IMG/VR virus record: IMGVR_UViG_3300009173_001692
Coordinates: 1 to 39,277 of that record
Length of the DNA stretch: 39,277 bases
DNA from: a virus
Direction: 5' to 3' (one strand)
Shown here: one piece after another, positions 15,740 through 38,529 of the stretch
Layout: every line of letters begins with the position of its first letter
How positions within the stretch are numbered: the stretch's first letter is position 1
The notes under the pieces: model-generated
Told to the model about the DNA's origin: nothing
Seen by the model: the letters and a program-made list of their open reading frames with translations, nothing else
Databases searched by the model: none
Position numbers and translations under genes: made by a program

Positions 15740-15747
15740 TATTTATA
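15740..15747 (-). promoter_or_regulatory. Late promoter TATAAATA before the structured gap and uvsY
   Basis: Exact octamer on the minus strand, overlapping the stop codon of the tube-like gene. Confidence 0.7.
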
Positions 15748-16282
15748 CATTACTAAAGTCATAACATGAATATGTAAAGGTTACATCTGCGGTTAAATAT
15801 GTAGTATCAGTATCTTGTGTTGTATAAATCAATCCACTTAATCCTGTAGGAAATGCATCATGTATATTACATCTCAAAACTGGATTATTTTTACTGCTAA
15901 GTATAGTAATAGTAATTTCACTATATAAATCCATTTCACCACCACGTTTCAAGTTATCAACTCTATCCTTAGCTTTAAATTGTGTGTGTGATTTTGGAAA
16001 TCCAATATTTACCATCCATTCAAATATCTCTTGATAATTTTTTAATTCTTCATCTACCATAAACGTCATGGTAAAATCTTCAAAGGTCATCGTATCTCCA
16101 ACTGTAGGTCTATCTATAAACGGAGTAGCCATTGCAGCTACACCTAATCCTACACCCGGCACATTTACCGATGTAGTAAAATATTCAGTTAATGGAAAAA
16201 TTCCTAACGTAACCTTAAATTGGCTATTTTGAGCATAATCAAAAGCATCAGGTTGTCTCCGTAAAGAGTCAATAGTTGCCAT
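15743..16282 (-). CDS. Second tail-tube-like protein (possible tail completion protein)
   Basis: A 179-residue beta-rich protein with the features of the gp19/tube superfamily: a start DAFDYAQNSQFKVTLGIFPLTEYF, a tube-like strand pair VGDTMTFEDFTMTFMVDEELKNYQEIFEWMVNIGF, and a C-terminal LTADVTFTYSCYDF. In related marine phages a protein of this size follows gp23, and T4 gp3 (tail completion, 176 residues), which has a tube-like fold, is a candidate equivalent; a baseplate-tube adaptor is the alternative. It is distinct from gp19 at 21671-22252. It follows the 87-residue gene by two bases. Confidence 0.7.
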   Translation of the reverse strand: MATIDSLRRQPDAFDYAQNSQFKVTLGIFPLTEYFTTSVNVPGVGLGVAAMATPFIDRPTVGDTMTFEDFTMTFMVDEELKNYQEIFEWMVNIGFPKSHTQFKAKDRVDNLKRGGEMDLYSEITITILSSKNNPVLRCNIHDAFPTGLSGLIYTTQDTDTTYLTADVTFTYSCYDFSNV

Positions 16283-20112: not shown

Positions 20113-20120
20113 TATTTATA
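20113..20120 (-). promoter_or_regulatory. Late promoter TATAAATA of the core protein-gp21 genes
   Basis: Exact octamer 16 bases before the ATG at 20096, inside the end of gp20 (stop at 20116). Confidence 0.8.
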
Positions 20121-21615
20121 AAAATGAGTCCTCGTCTTCTCCCCCATCTTTTTTTTCTTTTTCAATTTGGGCGTCAAGTTCTATAATTTCCCGTTCTGAT
20201 TGTTGTAAAACATTTCTCCTAACCCATTCATGCGAGTAATATTTACCTATATAATCTCCAATCATATCTAATTTCTCAATTCGATCACCAAGAACTTCTT
20301 GATCCCGCAATTCAGAAAAATGATTATCCATTATCCAATCAAACATAACTGCTTCTTTCATCTCTTCCCAATCTTCAGGAGTAATAATACCTTTAAGAAT
20401 TAATTGAACCCTAAGAACTTCTAGAAATATTGTTGAAAATTTCTTCCGAAGTTTCTGTATAAATTTTGTAAATTTAACTTCATCTCTAGTGATTTCTGTT
20501 GATCTTCCTAAACTAAAACCTTGTTCTGATTCCATTCTAGAAACAGGAACATTTAGTGAGCGATAAAGCTTACTCTGAAAATACTTAATATCTTCTAGCT
20601 CTCCAAGATTTTGTCCTCCAGGTAAAGTTGTGATCTCTGTACCTCTACCACCCTCTCTACGAGGTAACCAAAAATCTTCAAGCATGGACATCTTATTGCG
20701 ATCATCCTTTACTTCGCCACTACTAGCATCGTAAACTAATTTATTACGATACCGATTCATAATATCTTTTAAGTATTGTTCTGCTTTAGCTTTTGGTAAA
20801 TTACCAACATCAATGTAGAAAATTCTACGTTCTGGTGCCCGAGAAATACGATAGATAACTACCGCATCTTCAATCATTCTTAATTGATTAACGGGTTTAA
20901 TTGCTTTGTGTAAATAAGAATAAACTTGATTACTAGTAGGTTCATATAAACCAGATGTGATATACACAATAGAATCCGCTTCTATTTGTAATCCCTGACC
21001 AGCAGTTTTGTGTCCAGAAAAACCGGCATAAATTCCTTCTTCGTTGTACAAAAAATACTCTTTAACCTTTTTAACTAGACTACCACCTGTCGAAGTACTT
21101 CCTTTTTGAATCTCCCTTACTTTTCTAATACTTTTAGGATCAATATAGCGTAACTCTACGACACCCTTTTTCGGATCATTCTCGTCAACCATCTTATGAA
21201 AATAAATTCTACCATCTATATACCATCTCTTGAAAATTTCATGCGCTCTCTGATTCCAATGCAACATTTTTAAAATGTGCAAAAATTCGGAATGAATCTT
21301 TTTCTTAATGGAATCAGAAAAGTTAAGATAGTCTAGTGATATAGAAACAGAAGGTTGATTTTCGGAGGATACAATTGCCTCATTGACAATATCCTCAATA
21401 GCTTGATCACATTCTGGGTGTTCAGCTGTCTGCCTATACTTCTTTACTAGATCAAAATCATTCTTCGGAACAGTTTCACCAGTACCTACATATGCACCGA
21501 AAAAACCAGAAGCTGCTCCAATATCTAAAGACCCGTCATCGGGCGAAGGAGCAACAAAGCTTTTCGCCTCGCTCTTCTTCGCCCGACCGATCGTAAAACC
21601 AAATAATTCTGCCAT
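20116..21615 (-). CDS. 20: Portal vertex protein gp20
   Basis: A 499-residue portal (T4: 524) forming the dodecameric ring for DNA entry and neck attachment. Typical gp20 blocks are visible: KYRQTAEHPECDQAIEDIVNEAIV, RWYIDGRIYFHKMVDE, LRYIDPKSIRKVREI, ISRAPERRIFYIDVGNLPKAKAEQYLKDIMNRYRNKLVYD, DFWLPRREGGRGTEITTLPGG and DVKYFQ-like LEDIKYFQSKLYRSLNVPVSR. The C-terminus is Lys/Glu-rich. The ATG follows a late octamer by eight bases and no Shine-Dalgarno is seen, so the mRNA leader would be about three bases. Confident. Confidence 0.96.
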   Translation of the reverse strand: MAELFGFTIGRAKKSEAKSFVAPSPDDGSLDIGAASGFFGAYVGTGETVPKNDFDLVKKYRQTAEHPECDQAIEDIVNEAIVSSENQPSVSISLDYLNFSDSIKKKIHSEFLHILKMLHWNQRAHEIFKRWYIDGRIYFHKMVDENDPKKGVVELRYIDPKSIRKVREIQKGSTSTGGSLVKKVKEYFLYNEEGIYAGFSGHKTAGQGLQIEADSIVYITSGLYEPTSNQVYSYLHKAIKPVNQLRMIEDAVVIYRISRAPERRIFYIDVGNLPKAKAEQYLKDIMNRYRNKLVYDASSGEVKDDRNKMSMLEDFWLPRREGGRGTEITTLPGGQNLGELEDIKYFQSKLYRSLNVPVSRMESEQGFSLGRSTEITRDEVKFTKFIQKLRKKFSTIFLEVLRVQLILKGIITPEDWEEMKEAVMFDWIMDNHFSELRDQEVLGDRIEKLDMIGDYIGKYYSHEWVRRNVLQQSEREIIELDAQIEKEKKDGGEDEDSFL

Positions 21616-21623
21616 AGTATAAC

Positions 21624-21631
21624 TATTTATA
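21624..21631 (-). promoter_or_regulatory. Late promoter TATAAATA of gp20
   Basis: Exact octamer; predicted +1 near 21618, three bases before the ATG. Confidence 0.75.
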
Positions 21632-21670
21632 TCAATTCAAAAATAACTTTTACTTATCGAAATATTACCT

Positions 21671-21988
21671 TTACGTTGAGGGTGCCGATAGTGTTCTGCC
21701 AGAAGCTCTTCCGGATCCCTTACCACCGATTGTCATATAATTGAATCGCAATGTAACTGCGAATTCTAACAATGCATCGTTAGCATCATATGCCAAATCA
21801 GGTCCTGCCACGTTTTGCGGCCAAACATCATAGAGATAATATGTTCTTAACACATTATCATTTCGATCCATCTGTTGTACTGATGCATTAGCATAATACA
21901 TCGACGGTTTCTGACCTATCTGTGAACGATCTGTTACAATACCAATATCACCAAGATGATTCTGCCAAATTTCAAATCCGGCTCTCAT
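21671..21988 (-). CDS. 19: Tail tube gp19, C-terminal part after an in-frame TGA
   Basis: This 105-residue frame (from ATG 21988) is the continuation, in the same frame, of the N-terminal part at 22007-22252. Six further sense codons (SDRDQR) join the stop to this ATG. It contains MRAGFEIWQNHLG, a tube-like interaction region, VQQMDRNDNVLRTYYLYDVWPQNV and the strand EFAVTLRFNYMTIG, the normal C-terminal half of T4-like gp19. It has no obvious ribosome-binding site for separate translation, apart from a GACAGGGACC sequence, which is not a good match. Read with one sense codon in place of TGA the two pieces form a 194-residue tail tube protein of normal size. Confidence 0.8.
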   Translation of the reverse strand: MRAGFEIWQNHLGDIGIVTDRSQIGQKPSMYYANASVQQMDRNDNVLRTYYLYDVWPQNVAGPDLAYDANDALLEFAVTLRFNYMTIGGKGSGRASGRTLSAPST

Positions 21989-22006
21989 TCTTTGGTCCCT
22001 GTCACT

Positions 22007-22252
22007 TCAAATTGCTACAGTCCAGGGATCATAAGTACGATCACCGGCTACAAAAATTTGACGACCTCGGTAAGGAATCATAACTTCACCTATATTCAAA
22101 GCAGGAACTGTTGTACCTTTACACATGAATACAAAGTCTTGGCCAAGGGCGACCGTAACGTCACTGGGAGCACCAGTTATAGTAACTTGAAACTGGTTAC
22201 CTCTTGTGCCGCCTTCTCGTAATGCCCCAATAAACTCATTTAGGTTTGCCAT
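22007..22252 (-). CDS. 19: Tail tube gp19, N-terminal part ending at an in-frame TGA
   Basis: The 81 N-terminal residues of the tail tube protein, which polymerises into the inner tube through which DNA passes. MANLNEFIGALREGGTRGNQFQVTITG and the segment FMCKGTTVPALNIGEVMIPYRGRQIFVAGDRTYDPWTVAI are the typical gp19 start and first sheet. The ribosome-binding site GATAGGAGAATAAG is strong. The TGA at 22007-22009 stops the frame in the middle of the domain, and the same frame continues with homologous sequence. Alone this half could not fold into a tube subunit. Confidence 0.85.
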   Translation of the reverse strand: MANLNEFIGALREGGTRGNQFQVTITGAPSDVTVALGQDFVFMCKGTTVPALNIGEVMIPYRGRQIFVAGDRTYDPWTVAI

Positions 22253-22272
22253 TTTCTCTTATTCTCCTATCT

Positions 22273-24243
22273 TTATGAAATGATTTCACTAAACTCTACA
22301 CCGGTTCTAGCTGCTACGAATGTTAGTGTGATAAAGTTAATTGAGCGAGCAGGTTTGATATAGATGTCAGCCCTAAACTCATTACTGTCAATTACTTGAC
22401 CTGTATTATTTGTTTCGTCACAAACAACCAAGAAGTCAGTAATACCCCTGCGACCTTGAACATCTCGCAAAAAAGGCTCTACCATACCGATAAATTGTGC
22501 TCTTGTAAAGTCATCATTGAATTCAAACAATATTGACCGTGCGGCCGTCTTAACAACGGACTCAACAGTATTAAAAAGTCTGCGAACATTAATGCGACTA
22601 AAAGCACTATTAGAAGATAATGCTGTTTTATCTCCCCAAAGAACTGTACCTTCACCAGGAAAACTGGCTACAGGATTAATTCTATTTCGATATAAGGTAT
22701 CTCTCTGTGATTGTGTTGGGTTAAATGCCAATCCAACAGAAGCACGAATCTGACCACGATTCAAGCCACCCGGGCTCCACCATGGATCGTTTTCGTTATC
22801 TGTTGCGGCGCAAGCACCAGCGACATCAGCGTTGAGTGGAACCCAACGAAATACATCATTGTACTTATCATACATCTTTTTATAACCACTATCAAATACT
22901 GCATAAGATGTACTAGGTAGATTCAAAAAGAAACTACGAACATTGTTCAACTGCGTGTTTGAATTTGTAACATTAACAACATCAGCTCTCTCTGGCGAAA
23001 TAAAGACCATTAAATCTTTACGTTTTTCAGCGATATCTATTAAGTTTGTTGCGTGTGTTGCATCTCCAGGTCCACCAAAAATCAAACTAACGTCAATAGT
23101 ATCATCATCCATTAATTCATAAGCACTTAATTTCTCACCATTTGTTGGTGCATAATCATCAGTACCACCCGCAAGTGATTCTGAACTACTGATGGAAACA
23201 TCTGTGAATGTTGTTCCTCCGGCGGCATAACCCCAATTGGTTCCTGCGGGCAGGTGATCCATCCAATAAATGTATTCAGATGAACGATGCATAACATCAA
23301 CATAATAGTTTACATCTCCTGAGTCTGTTCGTGCATCAGCGGCTTTAGATACAAATGCCCATTTCTCTAGAATTGTTCCAGCTGTTCCTGTTAATCCACC
23401 ATCTTCATCTAATACGATGATATGCATTTGATCGCCAACTCCACTTCGATCTGATGCGAAAGTTGATGTTCCTGGAGCACCAGCAAATTCTTCATAATAT
23501 CTCCAGCGTCGTGTGATATTAGAATCATCGGTCACGGCAGCTGCCAAACCTTTTGTTGAAAATACTCCAAACTGTTTGAATGTTACTAAGTTGGAACTGG
23601 TATCTACTGCTGTAACGATATACTCAACTCCTTCATGACCTGTAACTGGTACTAGTCCAACGGTGTCAGATGTAAAAGATATGATATCATTTACGTTGAG
23701 TGTATAACCAGATAAATCAGCGTCATCAACCGTAATAGATAAATCACCTTCTACGGCTGCAGCATCATTCACTAGGTTATTTGTACCCATGTGAAGTTCA
23801 TAAGCTGTAGCACTTGGACATAATCCAACTGAAATATTATTTCCCCATGTGCCTGCGGATCGTGCGACCCACTCTCCAACTGCACCTGAACCATCGGCAT
23901 ATGTATTATACCAATAATCCGAATTTTTTACTAGAAGGCCTGTTCCTACTCCTGCTCCAACACCAGCAGTTGCATTAAGATGTCCACTATTAACACGAAC
24001 AACTCTTAATACACTTGCATACTTCAAAAATGAAGCTGCTGAAAAGAACCATTCAAATGTACTGCCATTAGGCTTACCAAAAGTCTCAACTAATTGAGTT
24101 TCATTTGAAATAGTAACAATTTCTTCTACGGGACCTTTTTCTGCGACAATAGCCACACCCCCAATACTTGTAGATTCTCCTACTAGAATATTGGTAAGAT
24201 CCTTTTCCTGTACTTGAACGCCCGGCGAAACGAGTGTTGCCAT
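22273..24243 (-). CDS. 18: Tail sheath protein gp18
   Basis: A 656-residue contractile sheath protein (T4: 659). The N-terminus MATLVSPGVQVQEKDLTNILVGESTSIGGVAIVAEKGP and the attachment pattern ETQLVETFGKPNG are the sheath hallmarks; the conserved C-terminal domain has VKTAARSILFEFNDDFTRAQFIGMVEPFLRDVQGRRGITDFLVVCDETNNT and ends with the strand that links subunits. The ribosome-binding site TAGGAGAG is good. A late promoter lies 60 bases upstream. It is followed by gp19. Confident. Confidence 0.97.
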   Translation of the reverse strand: MATLVSPGVQVQEKDLTNILVGESTSIGGVAIVAEKGPVEEIVTISNETQLVETFGKPNGSTFEWFFSAASFLKYASVLRVVRVNSGHLNATAGVGAGVGTGLLVKNSDYWYNTYADGSGAVGEWVARSAGTWGNNISVGLCPSATAYELHMGTNNLVNDAAAVEGDLSITVDDADLSGYTLNVNDIISFTSDTVGLVPVTGHEGVEYIVTAVDTSSNLVTFKQFGVFSTKGLAAAVTDDSNITRRWRYYEEFAGAPGTSTFASDRSGVGDQMHIIVLDEDGGLTGTAGTILEKWAFVSKAADARTDSGDVNYYVDVMHRSSEYIYWMDHLPAGTNWGYAAGGTTFTDVSISSSESLAGGTDDYAPTNGEKLSAYELMDDDTIDVSLIFGGPGDATHATNLIDIAEKRKDLMVFISPERADVVNVTNSNTQLNNVRSFFLNLPSTSYAVFDSGYKKMYDKYNDVFRWVPLNADVAGACAATDNENDPWWSPGGLNRGQIRASVGLAFNPTQSQRDTLYRNRINPVASFPGEGTVLWGDKTALSSNSAFSRINVRRLFNTVESVVKTAARSILFEFNDDFTRAQFIGMVEPFLRDVQGRRGITDFLVVCDETNNTGQVIDSNEFRADIYIKPARSINFITLTFVAARTGVEFSEIIS

Positions 24244-24303
24244 TTTATTTCTCTCCTATAAAAGTATAATCACGGGATATAATCACTATTTTCTTTATAC
24301 AGT

Positions 24304-24311
24304 TATTTATA
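24304..24311 (-). promoter_or_regulatory. Late promoter TATAAATA of gp18
   Basis: Exact octamer in the 117-base gap between gp18 and the plus-strand gene. Confidence 0.8.
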
Positions 24312-24347
24312 ATTTTATCGATTTTAAGAAACTAAAGTCTTTTTTAT

Positions 24348-24355
24348 AATAAATA
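24348..24355 (+). promoter_or_regulatory. Possible promoter of the plus-strand gene
   Basis: Plus-strand AATAAATA, one mismatch to the late octamer, with predicted +1 on the ATG at 24361. It overlaps a sigma-70 -10 match TATAAT (24345-24350) that has no good -35. Confidence 0.4.
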
Positions 24356-24360
24356 GTTTT

Positions 24361-24663
24361 ATGAAAAATGAATTTTATGAAAAATATAAACAGACCATAT
24401 TAAAAAGTAAACAGAATGGTCGTGATAGTAGAAAGATTTGGTTGATAAATTCTTTCGATACTCTATTTTGTGGTGTATGTGGTGAAGCTGAAAATGTGTG
24501 CTTACGATACTATCCTAATCATAAAGAAATATATAATCTAAATCAAAAGTATGGATTACAAAGTGATAAGAGAACATATATTGATAGACTCATTAATAAT
24601 AGCAAAGTCTTATGTGCTAATTGTGTTGAAAAAACAAAATATGATATTATAAACTACCAGTAG
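24361..24663 (+). CDS. Degenerate HNH-like zinc protein, opposite strand
   Basis: A 100-residue basic protein and the only plus-strand gene. Two cysteine pairs, C37-x2-C40 and C85-x2-C88, frame a region whose layout (CGVCGEAENVCLRYYPNHKEI ... NSKVLCANCVEKTKYD) follows phage HNH nucleases of the type C-x2-C ... L-x-Y/W-H-H ... LCANCH. The usual catalytic His-His is replaced around YPNH and the final His of ANCH is Val, so the zinc sites stay while the nuclease centre seems incomplete. The end overlaps the gp17 stop by ten bases, tail to tail. It may be an insertion of a homing-type gene between gp17 and gp18, now non-cutting or repurposed as a DNA-binding regulator. Confidence 0.72.
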   Translation: MKNEFYEKYKQTILKSKQNGRDSRKIWLINSFDTLFCGVCGEAENVCLRYYPNHKEIYNLNQKYGLQSDKRTYIDRLINNSKVLCANCVEKTKYDIINYQ

Positions 24664-26303
24664 CTGGGCCCCATTTTAGTTGGTGTCCACAAATCTCCAT
24701 CAACATCTACAAACGGTGCATCATCAGCCATAGAGATGCCATCATCTACAAAACCAAAAGGAGCCATATCTTCTTCAATCATTTTCTGTTGGCTTTGATA
24801 TAGTCGTTTTCTGATATCATCATCTGTTAATTCTTTGAAATAATTTTGATTAGTAAGCCAAGCATATAATACTAAACACATTACTAAATCATCTGTAGCT
24901 CCATCTTCAGCTTCATAAGATGATCCTTTAGCTACAAAATTAGAAAGTTCTACGATAATATCAAAATCATTAATAATTAATTTATCACTTTCTATCATCT
25001 GTTTCAAATTAGAACATCCTATCTTCTTTACTGCTTTAGTTGTTCTTACTCCTAAATCAGTAGCCTTGTCACCAAATCCACTACCAACAACTTGACCTAA
25101 TCGACCTCTCATTTGTGTCATTATAATATTTTCATATTCTAAATCGTAATGTAAAGCATCTGCAATCTGTCCACCAATATCATTTACTTCAACTAATACT
25201 TGTGCTAGATTATAGCTTGTAGCGACTCTGTGAACTAACTCAGGGAGGGCTAGCGGCTTTATTTCATTGTTTCTATACTTTGCTACTAGTCTATACGGAA
25301 CCTCTCCTATATCTAATATAACGAACGCTGAGTAGTCGTGTGATCCCCCTCTAGCCACATCTACTGTTATACAATAGTTATGATGTTTTGTAGGACGTTC
25401 ATATATATCTAACCCTGCATTAGATTCTATTGCATCTATTGTAGGAATAACTTGCAACTTTGTTGGACTAATTAAAGTATCAATTGATCCTAAAAATGAA
25501 CACTCAAACTCCTGTAGAAACTGTTGTTCTGAAGTATTTTGTATAGTTTGTTCTTTCCAAGCCTCATCCCTACCTGGTACTTCAGTCCAATGTACTTCAA
25601 TAGGCACAAATGTATTTTTTTCGTTTACTGCATCCTGCCACAATTTATAAAACATATTCATGCCGTGTGGGGTTGATACAATAATTACTTTAGAAGTTTG
25701 TCCTGCAGTAATCGTCGGATATACAGAACTAAAAAACTGTTCAGCAATGTTTGAAGGAACAAACGCAAACTCATCAAGAAAAATAAGATTATAACTTCCA
25801 CCTCGGACAGCAGATGCCGAAGTCGAACTTGCAAGAATTTTAGATCCATTTTCCAGTTCAAGACTTCCCTTGTTCCAGTTGATAACCCCCTGTTGCATCC
25901 ATTCAGGCAAATGTTCATATGCTAATTGAAATCTTCCTAGTAAATCTCTAGCCGTCTGTGCTTTGTTTGCAAGAATAGCTACACTAACAGTTTCATTGAA
26001 TATTAAATAATGAACTAGATATGCCAATAAAATTGTAGACTTACCAGATTGACGGGGTAACTTACATATAGTAAAACGATTGTTATGAAATGTACCTATC
26101 ATATCTCGTTGAAATGGATAGAGTCTAAAAGGAATCAAACCCTCATCAATACTAACAATCTTTACATAATTTTCTATGAAGTAACCAGGATTTTTAGAAC
26201 ACTTAATAAATTCAGCAACCTCAGCTTCTGAAAAAGAAAGTTCTTGTCCAGCGGCTTTTAAATTTGGATTGCCTTTATATACTGAACTAAATTGCTGTGC
26301 CAT
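24654..26303 (-). CDS. 17: Terminase large subunit gp17
   Basis: A 549-residue DNA packaging motor (T4: 610). The ATPase has Walker A RQSGKST (84-90) and Walker B IFLDEFA with D177 and E178, then motif III VIIVSTPHGMN. The RNase-H-like nuclease has VDVARGGSHDYSAF (D315), VLVEVNDIGGQ and DDLVMCLVLYAW supplying acidic ligands. The start ATG lies inside gp16 (17-base overlap). Confident. Confidence 0.97.
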   Translation of the reverse strand: MAQQFSSVYKGNPNLKAAGQELSFSEAEVAEFIKCSKNPGYFIENYVKIVSIDEGLIPFRLYPFQRDMIGTFHNNRFTICKLPRQSGKSTILLAYLVHYLIFNETVSVAILANKAQTARDLLGRFQLAYEHLPEWMQQGVINWNKGSLELENGSKILASSTSASAVRGGSYNLIFLDEFAFVPSNIAEQFFSSVYPTITAGQTSKVIIVSTPHGMNMFYKLWQDAVNEKNTFVPIEVHWTEVPGRDEAWKEQTIQNTSEQQFLQEFECSFLGSIDTLISPTKLQVIPTIDAIESNAGLDIYERPTKHHNYCITVDVARGGSHDYSAFVILDIGEVPYRLVAKYRNNEIKPLALPELVHRVATSYNLAQVLVEVNDIGGQIADALHYDLEYENIIMTQMRGRLGQVVGSGFGDKATDLGVRTTKAVKKIGCSNLKQMIESDKLIINDFDIIVELSNFVAKGSSYEAEDGATDDLVMCLVLYAWLTNQNYFKELTDDDIRKRLYQSQQKMIEEDMAPFGFVDDGISMADDAPFVDVDGDLWTPTKMGPSYW

Positions 26304-26703
26304 TTTGATCTTTCAATAACTTTTGAAGTTCTTTAGTCGATCCTATAAACAATGCATTCGTAACACTTTTTGGTCCATGATCAGGAACTTCTTTCAATTT
26401 TTTCATCTTTTCTTGCAGTTCAACTAACCGTTCTGTAACTTCTGAAACATTTTTAATTAATTGACCCGCAACTTCATATGCTCTAGGATGCTCTCCTTCC
26501 TTGGCAATATTTAATATACCATCAATTGCATCTTGACCACGCTCAATAAGATTATAGAAATTTTCCCGACTATACTTATAATCGGAATCCATATCCTCAG
26601 ATTCTGTAGGTCGTGGTATAAGCGGTTTAGGATCTAAAATTTCTTCTTTAAGATTTCTAGTCGCTATACCTAAGATATTATTTACATTATTCTCTAAATT
26701 CAT
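26287..26703 (-). CDS. 16: Terminase small subunit gp16
   Basis: A 138-residue helical protein (T4: 164) that recognises DNA and regulates gp17. The central part DYKYSRENFYNLIERGQDAIDGILNIAKEGEHPRAYEVAGQLIKNVSEVTERLVELQEKMKKL is the typical gp16 coiled-coil core. It starts with a four-base overlap with gp15 (ATGA) and overlaps gp17. Confidence 0.9.
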   Translation of the reverse strand: MNLENNVNNILGIATRNLKEEILDPKPLIPRPTESEDMDSDYKYSRENFYNLIERGQDAIDGILNIAKEGEHPRAYEVAGQLIKNVSEVTERLVELQEKMKKLKEVPDHGPKSVTNALFIGSTKELQKLLKDQNGTAI

Positions 26704-27488
26704 TGACCTTGTTCTGGGAATTGACCATCAGTCCATTCTGATAATGCTTCATTAAACCCAAAGTTATCATCATCAGGCGGAACAAGAGGTACTGTTTCTG
26801 CCGTATACTGACGTACTCTAGGTGGTGTCTTATCTTTCATATCAACATATTGATCTACTGTAACCTTCTGGATAGGTTCAGCTGTAGTAACAGGACCATA
26901 CATATAAGTTTTAGCTGTAAAGCTTAATGTATATATAATAGCTCGTCGTGTCGAAAAATCTCCATCATATGTATCTTCATATGCAGTCGATGTTAAAACA
27001 ATCGGCACATCTCTTATCTGATCCATTGTTGGAACTGTTTTAACAGTTACCGTATATTCTGGTTGAAAATAAGGAAGAATCTGTTCTACTATCTGAACAC
27101 TATCATCAGAATTTTTAGCCATAATGAATAATTCAAAATTAACATTGTATGGAACAGGACTATACTGCGTTGACATTTGTTTTGTTTCTGTTCCTTTTAC
27201 CTTTCTAATTTTAGATATCTTATTTAATTTTCTAGTACTATCATATTCTATACCGGAAAGTTCAAACCCTATTCTAGGTAATGTAATTGCTATTTTTTTA
27301 TCAAGTGTAGCATCTTCTCTTAGTCGAGCTAAGAATTTTTGCTTTGGTCCGTAGGCCAAAGGAACTTTTAAGGACTGTAACTCTGCACCAGCAGAATCTG
27401 TTCTAACAATATGTATATCATTAAACAAAGTTCCAAAAGATACAATAGTCTTTCTTAAAACTTCATGGTAATACGTTCTACCAAACAT
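26700..27488 (-). CDS. 15: Tail terminator / sheath stabiliser gp15
   Basis: A 262-residue protein (T4: 272) that caps the tail and joins it to the neck. The start MFGRTYYHEVLRKTIVSFGTLFNDIHIVR, then LKVPLAYGPKQKFLAR and the block YSPVPYNVNFELFIMAKNSDDSVQIVEQILPYFQPEYTV are typical gp15. It joins gp14 by a TAATG overlap. Confident. Confidence 0.94.
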   Translation of the reverse strand: MFGRTYYHEVLRKTIVSFGTLFNDIHIVRTDSAGAELQSLKVPLAYGPKQKFLARLREDATLDKKIAITLPRIGFELSGIEYDSTRKLNKISKIRKVKGTETKQMSTQYSPVPYNVNFELFIMAKNSDDSVQIVEQILPYFQPEYTVTVKTVPTMDQIRDVPIVLTSTAYEDTYDGDFSTRRAIIYTLSFTAKTYMYGPVTTAEPIQKVTVDQYVDMKDKTPPRVRQYTAETVPLVPPDDDNFGFNEALSEWTDGQFPEQGQ

Positions 27489-28225
27489 TAATACGAGCCT
27501 CCTCCAGGATCACCAAATGGATTACTTTCAGTGAAATCTAAAACCTCATCTCCTGCTTTTTCCATAAACAAGTTATCAGCAGTTAGTGCTATAGTATCCA
27601 CTCTATAGTCTTCACTAATTATATAATCACCATCTTCAGTTATCATTGCATCTCCATTCATCATTAACAATTGATAATCTAGAGCGTCCAGTGACATTGA
27701 ATCTTCAATACCATCTATAGCTACTATACCTGTATCCAAATCTTCAGATGAATATTCAAAAGTTGAACAGGACAATTTATATACGGGCAAATTATCTACT
27801 TGATAAAATGGATCATCGTGATCTACAAAATCAATCTGAAACAGCTTTTTTATTCTAGGAAAATATATTAAATCTCCCTCATTTGGCCTAGATGATTCTA
27901 TAAGATTAAGATCATCTCCAACTACAGTATCCCATCTACTTCTAGAAACTACAAAATTAGCCTCATCTCGTATTTCTAATCCAAATTTTGATATTAATTC
28001 TTTTTCTCCACCAAACCCTTCGTTGTTCTCCATATACATTTCAATTAAATATGCATCATTAAAGGATGATAAAGTATCTTCTCCCCATAAAGTATCCTCT
28101 GCCACTAATTTTCTAGGCAAATAATATACGTCATGACCAAAAACTTGTAACTGCTCTATGATTAAATTTTCATAAAGTGTTTGTTCACCAGAAGTTCCTT
28201 TACTAAAATATGCACTAGTGGTCAT
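27488..28225 (-). CDS. 14: Neck protein gp14
   Basis: A 245-residue neck protein (T4: 256) that with gp13 seals the filled head and takes up the tail. The start AYFSKGTSGEQTLYENLIIEQLQVFGHDVYYLPR and FEIDFVD-like KKLFQIDFVDHDDPFYQV are characteristic. It starts three bases after gp13. Confident. Confidence 0.93.
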   Translation of the reverse strand: MTTSAYFSKGTSGEQTLYENLIIEQLQVFGHDVYYLPRKLVAEDTLWGEDTLSSFNDAYLIEMYMENNEGFGGEKELISKFGLEIRDEANFVVSRSRWDTVVGDDLNLIESSRPNEGDLIYFPRIKKLFQIDFVDHDDPFYQVDNLPVYKLSCSTFEYSSEDLDTGIVAIDGIEDSMSLDALDYQLLMMNGDAMITEDGDYIISEDYRVDTIALTADNLFMEKAGDEVLDFTESNPFGDPGGGSY

Positions 28226-28228
28226 TTT

Positions 28229-29050
28229 TTATCCCACAGCAAAATCAACAGGCAACTCATATGTTAACCGAGCCTCTTCCTCTAACCTAATAAGTTCTTC
28301 TTGCGCCTGGGTGAACATCATCTCACCATTCATGGTCACACCACCCAACATAGTAACACCCTCAAATTTAATAAGATTCTGTCCCCATTGTTTTTTAACT
28401 AAAGCTGTAGCATATTTTTTTAAAAAGAAATCGTCGTATATATCAGTCCAAACAGCTGGATTTAATTTACGCCAACATTCTATTACCAAATATTCTCCAG
28501 CCGAAATATCAGTTCCCCAATCCATATCCACATACAATCTATCTTGATGCACATTGTGTCGGATTGGTTTTTCTCCTACTAGAATATGATCAAGAAAATC
28601 TAAATGTTGCATTGTCATTTCATACTGCATAACTGAAGATGAAGAAAAATCATACAAATCGTTTAGTCTTAATTGATATCGAACATCAAACATATTCATA
28701 CCACCTCTATCACTAAACGGAAAAACCTGTAATACTGATAATACACTAGTTGGTAATGGAATATAATTATTACTCTCATCCCAAGCAGCGGTAACTGAAC
28801 CAGCTACCTTATCTGTTACATTAGTTGTTGTATCAGCGGCTTCATCTGCTCTAGTTATATCAGCCTCTGTTATTTTATATTTGAGATACATTCGTTCTGT
28901 ACCATCCATATGAAATTGAGCATAATACTGTAAAGCCTCATCTACTCGATCATCTAATTGTGTAGAATCAACATTAACCTCCACAACAGGCTTACCTAAC
29001 CGTCGTAAGCACCATTCTCCAAATTCCGATTTTGTTGTTGGTATTGCCAT
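28229..29050 (-). CDS. 13: Neck protein gp13
   Basis: A 273-residue protein (T4: 309) of the head-closure neck ring. MAIPTTKSEFGEWCLRRLGKPVVEVNVDSTQLDDRVDEALQYY and ERMYLKYKITEADI are typical of marine gp13. It is the first gene of the neck-terminase operon and has a late octamer at 29070-29077 and an AGGAT ribosome-binding site. Confident. Confidence 0.94.
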   Translation of the reverse strand: MAIPTTKSEFGEWCLRRLGKPVVEVNVDSTQLDDRVDEALQYYAQFHMDGTERMYLKYKITEADITRADEAADTTTNVTDKVAGSVTAAWDESNNYIPLPTSVLSVLQVFPFSDRGGMNMFDVRYQLRLNDLYDFSSSSVMQYEMTMQHLDFLDHILVGEKPIRHNVHQDRLYVDMDWGTDISAGEYLVIECWRKLNPAVWTDIYDDFFLKKYATALVKKQWGQNLIKFEGVTMLGGVTMNGEMMFTQAQEELIRLEEEARLTYELPVDFAVG

Positions 29051-29199: not shown

Positions 29200-31440
29200 T
29201 CAATCAAACATTCCCGAATGCATACTAAAGTGATGATAAGTATGCGGATTGGTATGAATATTCTGATAATTATACGGGCCCATGTCATATTGCCATGTAC
29301 AATAACCAGCATTATCTTGGCCATCTACTCCACTTCGATAGAATTCTCCCATATCGGAAATCCATCCAAATACAGCCCACTCGTTATAGCCTGAATTAGA
29401 TCCTTGCATCAATCTCTGTCCAGGTGGCTGAATAACTCTAGTAAAGTGATCCGGATATGCACCACGTTCTCTGTGTTGATCGGCAGTATTAAACTGTGAA
29501 ATTGCAATCTCCCATCCTGAACCTTCATCTTGGTGTCCAGTTGAAGCACTTCCCCAACGGTTTCTACCTTGTGTCCAACAACCACCTTCTTCAGTAAACA
29601 ACATAGGCGAATGTGGATCTTCATAACTTGCAATATTTCTATAATCAGGACAAGTCATGCTCATTGTGGTAACATCATAGACGTTTGAAACTCTATTGAC
29701 ACCTGAATGGTTACCACCAGAGTTCCACCAATAACTAGATGTTCCATCTCCACCGATTGCATTATACTGATTACCGCCAGCAGCATATGTCAGACCGGTA
29801 TCCTTTTCTCTCAAGAAAAGAATGTGTGATTTTCCACCACCCATCCAAAAGTTGTCCCAACGACCATCGTTAGTATCAAATCTCAATCTGTTCGGAACAC
29901 CCCATTCGTGATTACTAGTTATCATAATACGTCCAACACCTGTTCCATTAGTAAAGTCGCCCCACGACCATAGATAACCATCGCCATCTAGAACATAGCA
30001 ACCATGGATTGCACCAGTATTGAGGTTTGAAAATGCCATAAACTTCTTAACACCACCATAGTTTTCCCAAGGAACAGGAATTTCCCTAGGATAATGAATG
30101 TACTTTTGCGTTTCGCCCTGACCAATTCCTAATTGTGAGGAACTATTCTGGCCCCATGCCCACATATTTCCATCTTCATCTAATGCATAACTCATAGATT
30201 CAGTACTACCACCTACTGCATAAACATCAACGATCCTCTTATATTTAAATCGACTTTGTGGAATTCGTAATGGATAGTAACGATTTGCCAAATGCATACC
30301 TACGGCAGTATAATCTTCAGCCCCGTGTCCTAACTGGCCGGCGGTGCCATGACCCCAAGTCCAAACAGATCCATCATCTCCCAATGCCATCTGATGAGTT
30401 GCGGACGTATTATAATAATCCCCCCCACTCATTGATACTTTAACTATTTTAGTTTCATTAAAGCATTTTGGAATTGTATTACCTGCACTATCGTAGTACA
30501 TTTCATTTGTAGTTCTTACAGGAAACTGCCTATTAGTAGTATCATTTATTCCTAATTGTCCGTGTCCATTATAACCAGACATATAAACTTCGCCATTGTT
30601 AAACAAGAACATTGTATTATCGTCATTACCACAAATTTGTATACACTTCGGAGTTTTTCCATCAGGTGTAACTAGAGGTCCCCAATCTGATGGAGTGTTT
30701 GGTGTTCCATCTGGACCTGCGAGACCCTTTCTCCAAGATGATTGATCCGAAGATCGGTACCAATCTACAAAGGTAAATCCTGTATTTCTATGAAAACTGT
30801 GTCCATAGTTACCAGTAGCATCACCAACTCCAGATGCATAATTTGATCTACCATAACTAACTGCAGCACCATCGTGACAGAGAAAATGACTCCTCCCTGT
30901 AAAATAACTTTGGAAGTGATGAAACTCTCCATTATTAATGGCTTCACCTTTATGTTTTCCCCATCTATGGAGAAATCCTAAAGGCTGTTGATTAACCGTA
31001 GCAACCGGCCAATTTCGCTGATCTGCTGTACTTGATCCTTCAAAAACCTTTTCCCAAAATTCTGTATCTAACCAATAACAGTTTCTTGGAGTGTTCTTAA
31101 TGCACATATACAGTTCGGAACCGACTCGGCACAATTCACCTTTTTGGTATGGCATCATTTGATTCCAACCACGAGCACTAGTTGACGCTGTAGTTACCTG
31201 TATCCAGTATTTTATATTATCTGGACGAAAACTTTTTAGAACCATCCTTGGGTGTTGCATTTCTTCTCGGGTGGTTGACATAACTGTAGCCATGTGTATT
31301 GTCCACTCCTCTGGAGTGTCCAAGATACAACGATAACCACAACCACGCCAAGAAACCATTTCTCTCTCTTTATAAGAGGTCTCACGTTCCCAAGGTCCTT
31401 TCCAAGTAGTCTTAATTTTTGAAATATCAAGATTCGACAT
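29200..31440 (-). CDS. RCC1-repeat fibre/adhesin protein (746 residues)
   Basis: The N-terminus has a carbohydrate-binding-module 5/12-like unit (TTWKGPWERETSYKEREMVSWRGCGYRC), then a second W/Y/C-rich unit near residues 100-135 (YQKGELCRVGSELYMCI). From about residue 265 the sequence is a beta-propeller of RCC1 repeats with the G-x-G-Q-L-G signature: YMSGYNGHGQLGIND, WTWGHGTAGQLGHGAED, WAWGQNSSSQLGIGQGE, and more diverged ones (WSWGDFTNGTG, CWTQGRNRWGSASTG). RCC1 propellers are surface binding modules; in a phage, a distal tail-fibre or adhesin role is the best guess. It is the last of three related genes in tandem and has a terminator behind it. The ribosome-binding site AAAAGG is weak. Confidence 0.85.
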   Translation of the reverse strand: MSNLDISKIKTTWKGPWERETSYKEREMVSWRGCGYRCILDTPEEWTIHMATVMSTTREEMQHPRMVLKSFRPDNIKYWIQVTTASTSARGWNQMMPYQKGELCRVGSELYMCIKNTPRNCYWLDTEFWEKVFEGSSTADQRNWPVATVNQQPLGFLHRWGKHKGEAINNGEFHHFQSYFTGRSHFLCHDGAAVSYGRSNYASGVGDATGNYGHSFHRNTGFTFVDWYRSSDQSSWRKGLAGPDGTPNTPSDWGPLVTPDGKTPKCIQICGNDDNTMFLFNNGEVYMSGYNGHGQLGINDTTNRQFPVRTTNEMYYDSAGNTIPKCFNETKIVKVSMSGGDYYNTSATHQMALGDDGSVWTWGHGTAGQLGHGAEDYTAVGMHLANRYYPLRIPQSRFKYKRIVDVYAVGGSTESMSYALDEDGNMWAWGQNSSSQLGIGQGETQKYIHYPREIPVPWENYGGVKKFMAFSNLNTGAIHGCYVLDGDGYLWSWGDFTNGTGVGRIMITSNHEWGVPNRLRFDTNDGRWDNFWMGGGKSHILFLREKDTGLTYAAGGNQYNAIGGDGTSSYWWNSGGNHSGVNRVSNVYDVTTMSMTCPDYRNIASYEDPHSPMLFTEEGGCWTQGRNRWGSASTGHQDEGSGWEIAISQFNTADQHRERGAYPDHFTRVIQPPGQRLMQGSNSGYNEWAVFGWISDMGEFYRSGVDGQDNAGYCTWQYDMGPYNYQNIHTNPHTYHHFSMHSGMFD

Positions 31441-31475
31441 ATTCGACTTTACCTTTTAATTTATTTGTTTTTTTT

Positions 31476-31877
31476 TTAGAAGCCTAGTTCAGTTTCTTCA
31501 GCATCAATTGCTGTACGTGCCGCGGCAACTTTATCTGTGATTGTTGTGTTACTATTAATAACAGCCTCAATCAAATCAAAAGTACCATGTGCATTTGTAA
31601 CAATATTCTTTCGGTGATCGCTTTGCTGAGCCATATACGATAGGGAAGCCTTAGCGGCTGCCGTATCTGCATGACCAGCTACATATTTTGTAATACCATA
31701 TTTTGCATCTTGACTATCGTCAACCGTGACATTGGTTGCTTCATAGCTAAACCAATCTCGACCGCTGGCAAGTCCAAGATGAATAATGGAATCCAAAATT
31801 GTGTTATCTGCGAGTTCAGGATGGACAAAGCCATCGTCTATTGTTCCTACTAACTGGCTATATATCTTACGTGCCAT
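31476..31877 (-). CDS. Hypothetical small virion-module protein
   Basis: A 133-residue mostly helical protein starting MARKIYSQLVGTIDDGFVHPELADNTILDSIIHLGLASGRDWF, with Ala/Thr-rich C-terminal helices. It is not recognised. It sits between two RCC1 fibre genes and has its own exact late promoter. The initiation region AGGAATTAACAG-ATGGC is the same as that of the upstream RCC1 gene. It may be a fibre connector or chaperone, but this is a guess from position. Confidence 0.65.
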   Translation of the reverse strand: MARKIYSQLVGTIDDGFVHPELADNTILDSIIHLGLASGRDWFSYEATNVTVDDSQDAKYGITKYVAGHADTAAAKASLSYMAQQSDHRKNIVTNAHGTFDLIEAVINSNTTITDKVAAARTAIDAEETELGF

Positions 31878-31914
31878 CTGTTAATTCCTCTAATAAAATT
31901 TATTCTCTAACTAC

Positions 31915-31922
31915 TATTTATA
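31915..31922 (-). promoter_or_regulatory. Late promoter TATAAATA
   Basis: Exact octamer 37 bases before the ATG at 31877. Confidence 0.75.
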
Positions 31923-31926
31923 AAAC

Positions 31927-34900
31927 TTATCTACCAATTCCTGGCTGAAACATCTGACCATTGGTCTCACCACCGGTGTTATCGTCAGAATAAGCAAATC
32001 TCTGGTGACCTGTAACTTGGCTATCAATCTGACTACTGTGTCCAGACCATCCCCAAACAAAATATCTACCGTCTTCTGTAACAGCAGAAACACCGTTTGG
32101 TCCATACCAACTAGCACCATTTGTCTGGCCATCCATACGGAAATCTACAATTTTAGATCCTGAAGGAATATAACAGTGATACATTTTCTGATCACCATCT
32201 TCTCCAGTCCAGTTAGTTGTACTTCCTGCAACTGGATTAGGCGTTGACCAGTGTGCTCCATACCCCTGATAATACAATTCACCTGTATCTGTTAGCCACA
32301 TTGTCCAAGAGATATCACTATAAAGACCAACTTGCATAACTTTCTTCAAGTTCATCATTTTAGTAATTCTAACCGGTGTTGTATGCGCCGCTGTATCTCC
32401 AAAACCGTTTCGATAATGTGCGCCACCAGCGCCTGCATACCATGTTGTGCCGTCATCTAATCGAACATACGTTGAAGCATGTTCTGTTGTGCTATTATCA
32501 TGACCACTAAAGGTCCAGAAGTCTACAATTTTACCATCTAGATTCGTTCCAACTGTTGGTGTATTAGACTCAGCTACCTGAAATCGTGTACCTGGTTCAG
32601 ATCGTCTCCATCCATCATTATTACCGGTAGTATTGTTATTAAATGCCTGTCCGTGGCTATTATAACCAACGTGCCAGACATATCCATTGCCATCTAAAAC
32701 CATCATCCATGCACGACCATAGTTTCCAGCAATCAGCCATTTCTTAACTCCACCATGACTTTTAAACGTATGATTATAATCTCGGGTTGCTCCTCCAGGA
32801 ACTTCCCAAGCTACTTTAACTGGATACCAATGGTGGGTAGCATTACCCTGTCCCTGGTATCCCTCACCGTTATGACCCCAAGCATAGAAATCATCGTTCT
32901 GAGTTCGTGCTGCTGAAAATGCACCGGTATCATCTCCCCATGCAGCAATATCAACAACTCTCTTATCATCAAAATAAGATTGCGATATCATACGTGGTGC
33001 ATTTTGTGTTTCATTGTTTCCTACTCCTAGAACACCATGAGAACCTCGGCCCCAACCCCAAACTTGACCTGAATCATCTAATGCCAAAATATGGTGATTA
33101 GATTGTTCTCTATAAGATGAACAAGAAATCTTAATGACTCGGACATGTTCCATACCAAGTACTCGATGTGGACCCATGGTGTTGCCTGTGCTGTGAGCAT
33201 CGCCTGTACCTAACTGACCTTGTCCACCGTGTCCCCAACCCCAAACTGATCCATCATTAAACAAACAATGCACCCAATCATATCCACATTCTAACTGAAC
33301 ACATTTTGGATGCTCACCATCTGGAGTATTATTCCATTTTTGTCTTCCAGTTTCCCTTCTATGATCATGCGTTTGACGTTTAGTAGATCGCTGTTCATCA
33401 CTCAACCACCATTCTTCATGTGTAAAACATAACTCTTGCAAGTAAGAAGGATGACGATTGTGTCCCCAGACCGCAGATGCTGAATAACCCGGAAGTCCAT
33501 GATAAGCATTATTAGTACCCGGACCCATGGTCATTACTTTACCATTTTTAGTTACCATAACCCTGTTACGATATCGTCCATTAGATTGAATATCATTATG
33601 TGGGAACGGCCAATCAATTGGGCCTTCGTTATTTTGTGTTCCACACGCAACCTTACTTGAGTTACCATGTCCAGGAGCAATAACTTCCCAACACAAAGCT
33701 CCTAATCCTTTATCAGCCATATTGGATCGTCCAATCGGACCATCTCCAACATCTTCTGACCAACGGGCCGCACTAACATTCCTACGAGTTCCAGGCATAT
33801 GTTTTTGTCGACCTTTATCCATAGTGACACCAGCAGTACCATCTAATGGATTTTCATATAATTCTACAGGAGCTGATGCAACGTGTGCAGCACCTGTAGT
33901 AGTTTGTCGTGTAAACGGATTCTTAACTCCCCGTATAAGTCCAGTTAGAGCTCCTGACGCAGCAGTTCTTCCTGTCCAAGATATAAATTCTTCATCAATT
34001 CTACATATTCCTTTAGTCGGCCATGAAGCCCCACCAGTTAGTAATAGTGTAGTTGCAACATTAGTTATTCCACTACTTAAAGTTTCAGATTTACTAGGAA
34101 TAGTTAATGTGCCGGCTGTTTCTGTATGCAAATAACCATCAGTTGGTTGTTTTGCTTTATTATCAACAGTGGCCGCATACATACCGCCTTTCCACTCAAC
34201 GATATCTCTCCAGTAATACTGTGTGGTAACAGACCAAGGTCCTTTCCAAGATATATCGTTACCAATTGAATCCCAATGTTGCCAGCCTCGACTAGATTCA
34301 TTAATTGCTATTTTAGTTCCCATAGATGCATGAGCATGACAGTAGTAATACATCGTATCTGCTGAAGCATCATCAACAGTCCACTCAATATAGCGTGTAC
34401 CGTGATTGGCCCATTTTTCGGCCGAGGTAAATGAATCTTCATATTCTGCAGCAGTTGCTTCTGTTCCACCAAGCCAATAAGTAATACCGGTTGTATAAGC
34501 AGCACCTGAGTTATGTGTTCCATCTGATGTTGTAGAAAAATGCAAAGGATGTGTGTTGTTTGAATAATGGTTTTGAACAAATTGATATGTAAATCCTCTA
34601 ACAAGTCTTATTTGATCATTAAGATCGCCCCAAACATCAACTGCGGAGTTACGACCGGTGTTCACGCCAGGATAACCCTGTAAGCCACCGGCTAGTGTTG
34701 ATAAGTCTTCCGAACCAGGACCTTGATGTTGTGGTTTATGACCATCTATAGTAAAAACATCTACAGTACCTGTTGTTCCTAAAGGATGATATGAACCAGC
34801 ATCTTTTCCAACTTCTACAACCAAAATCCTTCTAATTCGACCTTTATAATCTTGGCTGTTTTCATCACTTAGGACTTCTAATGGTCCAGAGTTGTCCCCC

Positions 34901-35082
34901 GCAAATGGCATATCTCTATAGCCTGGGGCAAATCTATCATTAGACGCCACTGGTGTATAGAGATTCTTACATACCCACATACCATTGTGATATCTTACAA
35001 CATCATCTTTTTCGTATGTTGTAGAAGCGGACCACGCTGCCCGGTAAGTTTGTTTTACTTTTCCTAAATCAATTATAGCCAT
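31927..35082 (-). CDS. RCC1-repeat fibre protein with cupredoxin-like domain (1051 residues)
   Basis: Domains in order: carbohydrate-binding-module 5/12-like unit (11-45, AAWSASTTYEKDDVVRYHNGMW), a strand-rich segment, a cupredoxin-like domain at about 158-262 with HPLHFS (H178/H181) and YYYCHAHASMG (C248, H251, M254) as a possible type-1 copper site, a second WKGPWSVTTQYYWRDIVEWKGGMY unit (279-303), and an RCC1 propeller from about residue 600 (GWGHGGQGQLGTGD, GWGRGSHGVLGVGN, AWGHNGEGYQGQGN, HVGYNSHGQAFNNN). It should be a large distal tail fibre or adhesin. A late-promoter variant (AATAAATA, 35104-35111) and AGGAATTAACAG precede the ATG. Confidence 0.85.
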   Translation of the reverse strand: MAIIDLGKVKQTYRAAWSASTTYEKDDVVRYHNGMWVCKNLYTPVASNDRFAPGYRDMPFAGDNSGPLEVLSDENSQDYKGRIRRILVVEVGKDAGSYHPLGTTGTVDVFTIDGHKPQHQGPGSEDLSTLAGGLQGYPGVNTGRNSAVDVWGDLNDQIRLVRGFTYQFVQNHYSNNTHPLHFSTTSDGTHNSGAAYTTGITYWLGGTEATAAEYEDSFTSAEKWANHGTRYIEWTVDDASADTMYYYCHAHASMGTKIAINESSRGWQHWDSIGNDISWKGPWSVTTQYYWRDIVEWKGGMYAATVDNKAKQPTDGYLHTETAGTLTIPSKSETLSSGITNVATTLLLTGGASWPTKGICRIDEEFISWTGRTAASGALTGLIRGVKNPFTRQTTTGAAHVASAPVELYENPLDGTAGVTMDKGRQKHMPGTRRNVSAARWSEDVGDGPIGRSNMADKGLGALCWEVIAPGHGNSSKVACGTQNNEGPIDWPFPHNDIQSNGRYRNRVMVTKNGKVMTMGPGTNNAYHGLPGYSASAVWGHNRHPSYLQELCFTHEEWWLSDEQRSTKRQTHDHRRETGRQKWNNTPDGEHPKCVQLECGYDWVHCLFNDGSVWGWGHGGQGQLGTGDAHSTGNTMGPHRVLGMEHVRVIKISCSSYREQSNHHILALDDSGQVWGWGRGSHGVLGVGNNETQNAPRMISQSYFDDKRVVDIAAWGDDTGAFSAARTQNDDFYAWGHNGEGYQGQGNATHHWYPVKVAWEVPGGATRDYNHTFKSHGGVKKWLIAGNYGRAWMMVLDGNGYVWHVGYNSHGQAFNNNTTGNNDGWRRSEPGTRFQVAESNTPTVGTNLDGKIVDFWTFSGHDNSTTEHASTYVRLDDGTTWYAGAGGAHYRNGFGDTAAHTTPVRITKMMNLKKVMQVGLYSDISWTMWLTDTGELYYQGYGAHWSTPNPVAGSTTNWTGEDGDQKMYHCYIPSGSKIVDFRMDGQTNGASWYGPNGVSAVTEDGRYFVWGWSGHSSQIDSQVTGHQRFAYSDDNTGGETNGQMFQPGIGR

Positions 35083-35103
35083 CTGTTAATTCCTGTTTTT
35101 CTA

Positions 35104-35111
35104 TATTTATT
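35104..35111 (-). promoter_or_regulatory. Late-promoter variant AATAAATA
   Basis: One mismatch to the late octamer, about 21 bases before the ATG at 35082. Confidence 0.4.
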
Positions 35112-38100
35112 AGTTGTACACGCCTTCCATAATATATGGGGCGATGTTCCCTTCATGACCCTGGCTGCCGGCATGTTGACCACTACCGGAATTACCTCGT
35201 CCAGCCTTGAAGCATCTATTTCGATCTGTTTGCCACAATGTCATCATATGTGGATCGTTGCCCTGACAATGACCTACGCCGATAACATCTACAAAATGTC
35301 CTTGAGCCATAGGAGCAGCACGTACTGGTTGATGCCATCCATTGGCCTGTAAATCTAGTCCATGAGCACCATCTGAATTCTGACTAACGTTAACATCGCT
35401 TCTACCTGAACTCAAGCAACCATAATGTGCTCTACCATTAACCCAAGAGTGACCTTCATCTGTTACAAAAATTACTGATCCAGTATCGGCTCCGGCATCA
35501 TTGCCCAGCAAGGACGCCACATTTTTGACATTGCGGAGATGACTTCTTGTCATTTCTCCAGCAATTGCCTTTTTGTGATCAAGAGTAGGCACAGCAATAT
35601 ATGACAAAACTGGAACAGATGAGTTCGTTGTTGATCCAGCATAATCACCAAAAATGTAACTATGATTTCTGCCACAAACCCATGTATATCCTAAGTCATC
35701 TCTAATCCACAGTTGTACATGATTTCCATTTCCAGTATACCAAATATTTGAAGCCTTTGTTGATCCTGTTACGTTTTGTGCATGACCAACCCAAGTTGCA
35801 GAACCTGGACCGAATAAGCATCTAGTAAACACGTTCAAGTCTGTTGTATTATTCATGGCATGCCAACCTTGAGCATTATAACCTGTTACCCAAATTTCAC
35901 CGGTAGATGTTAAGATTGCTGTTGAAGAATAACTTGCTCCTGAACACTGTTGTACCTTTCTGATCTCGCCCCGAGTGCCATCAACCCAGGATCCTGCATT
36001 AATTTGCACCGGGGAACTTCTGTTGGTGACCGATCCATCTCCTAACTGACCTCTAGTATTCATTCCCCAAGCCCATAAGTCTCCGTCACTATCTACTGCA
36101 TGGCAGTAAGCCTGCTCTTGACCAGCTACCCAAATACCTTCAACAGCTCGGGCAGTACCACCGAACCCTGGCCTAAAACTAGAAAGACCTGAATCAAGTA
36201 CGTCATTATCTAAACGTCTAGGATAATTTATGATTAGTGTGTTGCCATGTCCTAACTGACCATATGAGTTCAGTCCCCAAGACCAAAGATATCCATCCTC
36301 GTCTATAGCGTAACAGCTATGACCCGCGGTCATATTTTGTCCACCACTAGCTGCAATTCTTACCATTCGTGTTCGATACAACGTGTGATAAACAGGAGGT
36401 CCTGCGAAACCGACACCACCGTCGTATCGTCGATAAACATTTGTATAAGAACTACCACATCTAGCCATGTAGGCTCTAGTAGTACTTGCAAAATCTCCAG
36501 TCTGGCCGTTGGATCCAAAGCCACCGTGATAAATTTCACCATTGTTAAACAACATCATCATATAGGTATCACCACACTCTAACTGAACACACTTAGGTGG
36601 CTCTCCGTCTGGTGTATTAAAGGGACTTGTGCCGCCTCTTCCACCAATCCAAAGTGACCCTGTTCCTCGACCTTCTCTATAATCATAGGATGTGGCCCAG
36701 TTTCCAGTAGCTACTGCTGATGCAGTGACCGACTTTGTTCCCTGTAATCCGCCATTACCATTAGCTTGTTTCCAAATTGTAAAATCGTCAGCGGTTGTTT
36801 TTGTCACTCGGATAAAATACCAATCTTCATCAAAGATTTCTCCACCAAAACCTGTCTGGAATCGTAAAGAGCCATCCCACCAAACTTCAAAGTTGAATCC
36901 GTAGTTCTCTCTATAATAAAGAGTCCAATAATAATCTTTCTGATAATACTGTTCAACTATTGTTTGACGACCTCGACCTTTACCACCATCTTTTAATTTA
37001 ATATGAAAGTCAAAATGCCAATCTATACCAGTTGTTATCAAAGTCCATTTTGCATTTTCTTGAAGTCTTAAATAATCTCCATCTCCACCAAATTTAATAC
37101 TTGAAGTTCCGAAGATGGCTTCATCTGTTGAGTGCTCAGGCGAACACCATCCTGAAGTTTTATTTGTTCCATCAGGATTTCTATTATAATCGTTATGATT
37201 ATATATTCCGCCAACGTCTGGGTTGGATGTAGGATGTGGCATAACAGCATAACCATTTCCACTTGAATCTACAAAAGTTCTTGCACCATCAGTTTCACTT
37301 CCAGACTGAATCAACAGGTCTGTAAAAATATCATTTGTTGCAGCTGCAACAGGAACTGTAACAGTACCTGAAGATGCATTATTCATCATACGGAAATCTT
37401 CTATATATCCATCTAAGAAAGAATCCCATTCTTTATGATCTGTTGAACTAAACCAATCCAAAAAGTCATGACTTGTTTCGATAGCGGTAAAGATGGTGTG
37501 TTCAAAGGCATTAGCACTCTCTGTGTTTATACCCCAACGAGTTACTCCACCGGCGCCATTGATATATCCCTTGGCATGCCAGTTAGTACTTTGTTTGTTA
37601 TCACCTAAAGCATAATACTTTGATGTATCTCCAACAATTCCTTTATTAGGAAGTTTGATACAATCTCTATAGTTGCCTGTAAAGGCAGATCCTGTTGTGG
37701 TAGCCACTTTAGTTACGGCGTTATCAAACTGACCTTTACCAGAATTTGCAGTTGTATTCCAAGTCTGAACGGCTCTAGAATCTGTATCATCAATATCATA
37801 TTCTGATGTTACGAGTTGCCAATTAGAGTTTGCTGCATAAGGATAATCACTTTCTGTTGGTGCAGCAGGCAATGTTACTTCTGTTGTACAAATATAAGTT
37901 GCTGTGGATGTCTGATGAAACCCTTGAGCTATATCAGATTGAACTGCTGTTGCCGCGGCTAATGTTCCTCCACCTAATGTTATCACAACATCGGGAACTG
38001 CATTATATCCAACACCACCGGTAACTACATCAATTCTAGTTACGGCTCCACCTACTACGATTGCCGTAGCTGTTGCTTGTGTTGTTGCGCCACCAGATGT

Positions 38101-38529
38101 TACTCCACCAAGTGTTACTGTAGGGGCTGAAGTATATCCAGAACCTCCTGCTGTAACTGTAATAGACGTTACTACTGTTGGTGTGTCATCCATACCGGCT
38201 GTCCCAGCCCATGGTGATGCAGCTGCAAAGTTTGGTCCGGCCTTCAAACGTCCGGCTGTTGTTTCGATAAACATAGGCACTTCGATTTGAACAACATCAT
38301 TAACTCTGTAAACTGTAGCGGCAGCATGAGAATACGCACCTTTCCAGTTAAACATTGATTGCCATGTATCCCAAGAACCTGAATTTGTATCTGGATTCTG
38401 TCCGGCAGTTGTATCTGTTGTACAAAGATGCCAATGTCCACCGTAATGAATGATATCATCTTTCAGATATGTTGCCGAAGCATCATACTCGTTTTTAATA
38501 TTAAAACTAATGTTTCCTAATGTAGCCAT
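35110..38529 (-). CDS. RCC1-repeat fibre protein with lectin-like domain (1139 residues)
   Basis: Domains in order: carbohydrate-binding-like unit (15-38, [22 protein letters not shown]) and a second one near 62-92; two tandem beta repeats of the type [15 protein letters not shown] / [18 protein letters not shown] at about 128-188; a LamG/concanavalin-like jelly roll at about 401-645 ([44 protein letters not shown]); and RCC1 repeats from about 650 to the end ([41 protein letters not shown], then diverged copies). It is a multi-domain receptor-binding fibre candidate. It is related to the two RCC1 genes downstream, all sharing a PKCVQLECG-like opening of the first blade. Confidence 0.86.

Follow-up and report, generated by a model that had tools for sequence, protein, structure and literature searches.

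In a marine T4-like virus, the gene for the tail tube protein gp19 is broken midway by an in-frame TGA, which raises the question of whether the virus regulates the synthesis of its tube by reading through a stop codon, or whether the stop is an error or a mutation in the one sequence in which it is found. The window that we analysed, i.e. the whole stretch of DNA, is a 39277-base IMG/VR virus record carrying T4-like structural genes; among cultured viruses, its DNA is closest to that of Pelagibacter phage Mosig and of Synechococcus/Prochlorococcus myoviruses (~67% identity). The features discussed here are listed in Table 1.

Table 1. Location of the gp19 locus, its interrupting codon and related genes in the window
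Feature	Coordinates	Strand	Status	Family match
gp18 tail sheath	22273..24243	-	upstream neighbour of gp19, intact	phrog_23, E 2e-128
gp19 tail-tube gene	21671..22252	-	193 codons + TAA; broken at codon 82	
in-frame TGA (opal)	22007..22009	-	gp19 codon 82; this contig alone; sense codon in all relatives examined	
gp20 portal protein	20116..21615	-	downstream neighbour of gp19, intact	phrog_213, E 7e-209
gp3 tail-tube terminator	15743..16282	-	distant gp19-fold paralogue	phrog_45, E 3e-30

Translation of the minus strand from 22252 to 21674 gives MANLNEF...DPWTVAI-stop-SDRDQRMRAGFEIW...SAPST, and the natural terminator of gp19 is a TAA at 21673-21671 on the same strand. When the TGA is read through, the resulting 193-aa protein matches phrog_45 (tail tube) over residues 1-185 (E 1.1e-45), and a profile of the window gp19 and its relatives matches the solved structure of T4 gp19 in the PDB at E 7e-37. 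The read-through protein scores 27.6 bits against Pfam PF06841, i.e. slightly below the cut-off of 28.2. Its length is normal among relatives, and the frame is unbroken on either side of the TGA. These observations bear out the preliminary description of this DNA, which had reported an in-frame TGA without a frameshift, gp19 homology on both sides of it and a normal total length.

The gene lies between those for the sheath and the portal protein, and the order gp18-gp19-gp20 is likewise present in P-TIM68, S-BM3 and Mosig, as in Kyanoviridae phages. In gene order, length and whole-protein homology, the window gp19 is like the T4-like gp19 (PF06841, phrog_45) of Kyanoviridae-type marine myoviruses; the sole difference is the in-frame TGA that the window contig alone has as codon 82, the reading frame being uninterrupted in all relatives. 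Upstream of gp18, 410 bases (24244-24653) separate this gene from gp17 on the minus strand and are overlapped by a plus-strand ORF of 100 aa (24361-24663), for which a PHROG search matched no family.

A protein search of IMG/VR with gp19 identified six close relatives. Codon 82 specifies tryptophan in 3/3 near-identical contigs, the gp19 of which is otherwise the same as that of the window, and also in the three further relatives, the gp19 of which is 88-89% identical over the gene and 89-90% identical in local alignments. Eight distant gp19 homologues contain I, V, L or Y but never a stop in the corresponding column; they belong to cyanophages, phages of Pelagibacter, single-cell marine viruses and an additional IMG/VR contig. 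A profile-based search for remoter viral contigs added one relative (26%), and a degenerate DNA pattern that allowed either codon returned from IMG/VR the same six close-relative contigs only. The exact stop-bearing 28-mer was found in no other IMG/VR contig, although the search tools used may leave out records that are nearly the same as the window. When synonymous and non-synonymous differences were counted for each half of gp19, the outcome was mixed. These comparisons show that the base creating the TGA is private to this contig and that its relatives have a sense codon.

As the closest substitute for sequencing reads, we used the separately assembled near-identical contigs, which jointly span 13566-37195 of the window, part of this span being covered by more than one contig. 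Identity to the window is 99.95% over 7641 bases for 3300009706_000288, 99.96% over 12806 bases for 3300009786_000263, and, in a gapped comparison, 99.95% over 15494 bases for 3300027838_001261, corresponding to 4 to 8 differing positions per 7.6-15.5 kb. Position 22007 is the only site at which all three contigs depart from the window, and within 20755-28395, which is at least two contigs deep, it is the only site at which the window stands alone against the others. Every other difference from the window is confined to one contig each: besides 22007, 3300009706 has three differences, two of them in gp18 and the third in the head-closure gene (27488-28225); 3300009786 has four, all synonymous and in the scaffold gene; and 3300027838 has one homopolymer length difference at 31468 as well as six substitutions in a fibre-like gene, all within 32044-32407.

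The contigs 3300009786 and 3300027838 are identical throughout their overlap, and the samples behind them may be related, so that the independence of the three contigs is uncertain. By contrast, 3300009706 differs from both of them at two gp18 sites and from 3300027838 at a third; these differences support that it was assembled separately. The two gp18 sites, at 22695 and 22701 on the minus strand (codons 515 and 517 of the sheath gene), are amino-acid differences that set 3300009706 apart from the window as well as from 3300009786 and 3300027838.

The six substitutions in 3300027838 are packed into 360 bases, the other 15 kb being nearly invariant, and recombination or diversifying selection at the tail fibre is a possible explanation for this cluster. 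Three large fibre-like genes (746, 1051 and 1139 aa) lie at 29200-38529 on the minus strand and have RCC1-like repeat matches in common (phrog_4219, phrog_7220).

The window contains one other tube-like gene, which also matches phrog_45 and is located between the gene for the gp23 major head protein and UvsY. Compared with solved structures, its product best matches the T4 gp3 tube terminator (E 1e-5), with gp19 at 0.03, and in a direct comparison with gp19 it matches poorly (18% identity, E 0.09). The annotations of its homologues are mostly gp3, head-proximal tip of tail or tail completion, and some are tail tube. On the basis of the structure match and these annotations, this gene is gp3, the tube terminator, and we reject a role as a backup tube gene; it should not be regarded as standing in for gp19. 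The score of gp3 in phrog_45 implies that profile-based annotation of these phages will list two tail-tube genes.

Altogether, these observations make it nearly certain that the TGA arose either from an error in the consensus, the amplification or the assembly or from a real nonsense mutation that does not propagate, and that it has no regulatory role. Two of the three options that the preliminary description had raised, i.e. error and nonsense variant, fit this evidence; the third, readthrough, does not, because a sense codon occupies the site in every relative that we examined. A global change of the genetic code, with UGA read as tryptophan, is rejected. Ten other window genes end at TGA, including those at 502 and 10032, and 246 TGG codons are used in the window, in agreement with the earlier view that genes in this DNA stop normally at TGA and that there is no global recoding. 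The idea that local recoding, e.g. as selenocysteine, or regulated readthrough controls tube synthesis draws on the intact frame on both sides of the TGA and on a 121-nt fold that spans the stop, includes upstream sequence and is somewhat more stable than its shuffles (z -2.6, 3 of 200). This fold is discounted because the near-identical contigs that lack the stop have the same folding sequence. The downstream stem-loop or SECIS-like element suggested earlier did not materialise: stretches of 77 and 101 bases directly downstream of the stop fold at a level near that of shuffled sequence (z -1.5 and -0.75), searches of the window with Rfam gave no element and no SECIS-like match, and a search across the window for tRNA genes, including suppressor tRNAs, found none. 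Moreover, a regulated stop should be common to the nearest relatives at least, and yet codon 82 is a sense codon in 6/6 close relatives, even those that are >99.9% identical, and in 8/8 distant homologues; the readthrough proposal is therefore unsupported, and we regard it as very improbable. Programmed UGA readthrough in a virus is known from phage Q-beta, in which it generates the A1 extension of the coat protein. Q-beta A1 and the window gp19 are alike in that coding sequence continues in frame beyond a UGA; however, the stop in Q-beta-type readthrough is conserved and gives two functional products, whereas the stop in the window is present in one contig and would cut an essential protein midway. 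Separate translation of two half-proteins, with the second starting at an in-frame ATG at 21988 that is preceded by a purine-rich stretch, is the least credible of the readings. The N-terminal half alone matched no family in a Pfam search, distant homologues do not conserve the methionine at 21988, and gp19 is one continuous frame in 6/6 close relatives. The last two observations rule out a conserved split gene with an internal start, an arrangement that the preliminary description had also considered.

The private single-base change places an opal codon at the tryptophan site of the relatives in an otherwise normal gp19, and the viable phage population would make the full-length 193-aa tube protein. 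The change is probably a sequencing, amplification or assembly error in the consensus and nothing else, in which case the stop would not occur in any appreciable fraction of the sampled viruses. In favour of an error, a single base is affected in a single contig, and, gp19 being essential in T4, a fixed opal codon should not be the majority allele. However, one isolated difference is not necessarily an error, because the near-identical contigs differ from one another at similarly low rates by what appear to be real polymorphisms. Random base changes in the window genes create a stop in about 5% of cases, and this site was picked for being one; therefore, a private change to a stop is unremarkable. 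A tenable if less probable source of the TGA is that the sampled genome really had a nonsense mutation, which would be either non-viable or leaky. The appeal of this reading lies in the tryptophan of the close relatives, which is the residue that leaky misreading of UGA by a host tRNA-Trp would insert; a UGA with A as the next base is a recognised leaky context when tRNA-Trp decodes it. Such decoding could let a rare TGA variant persist briefly, but it would leave a severe defect, many copies of gp19 being needed (the T4 tube contains well over a hundred per virion), and the exact 28-mer search of IMG/VR brought up the allele in no other contig. That an opal allele of this essential gene circulates naturally, sustained by leaky decoding of UGA as tryptophan in the host at the cost of less tube protein, appears highly unlikely. 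In total, we infer that the TGA reflects either an error or an allele that is not viable.

The TGA in gp19 does not represent a novel mode of decoding. More generally, caution is called for when an assembled viral contig shows a lone in-frame stop within an essential gene, and near-identical contigs should be compared before recoding or readthrough is proposed. If reads were to establish that a TGA-bearing population is real, it would be an example of natural opal suppression in a marine phage.
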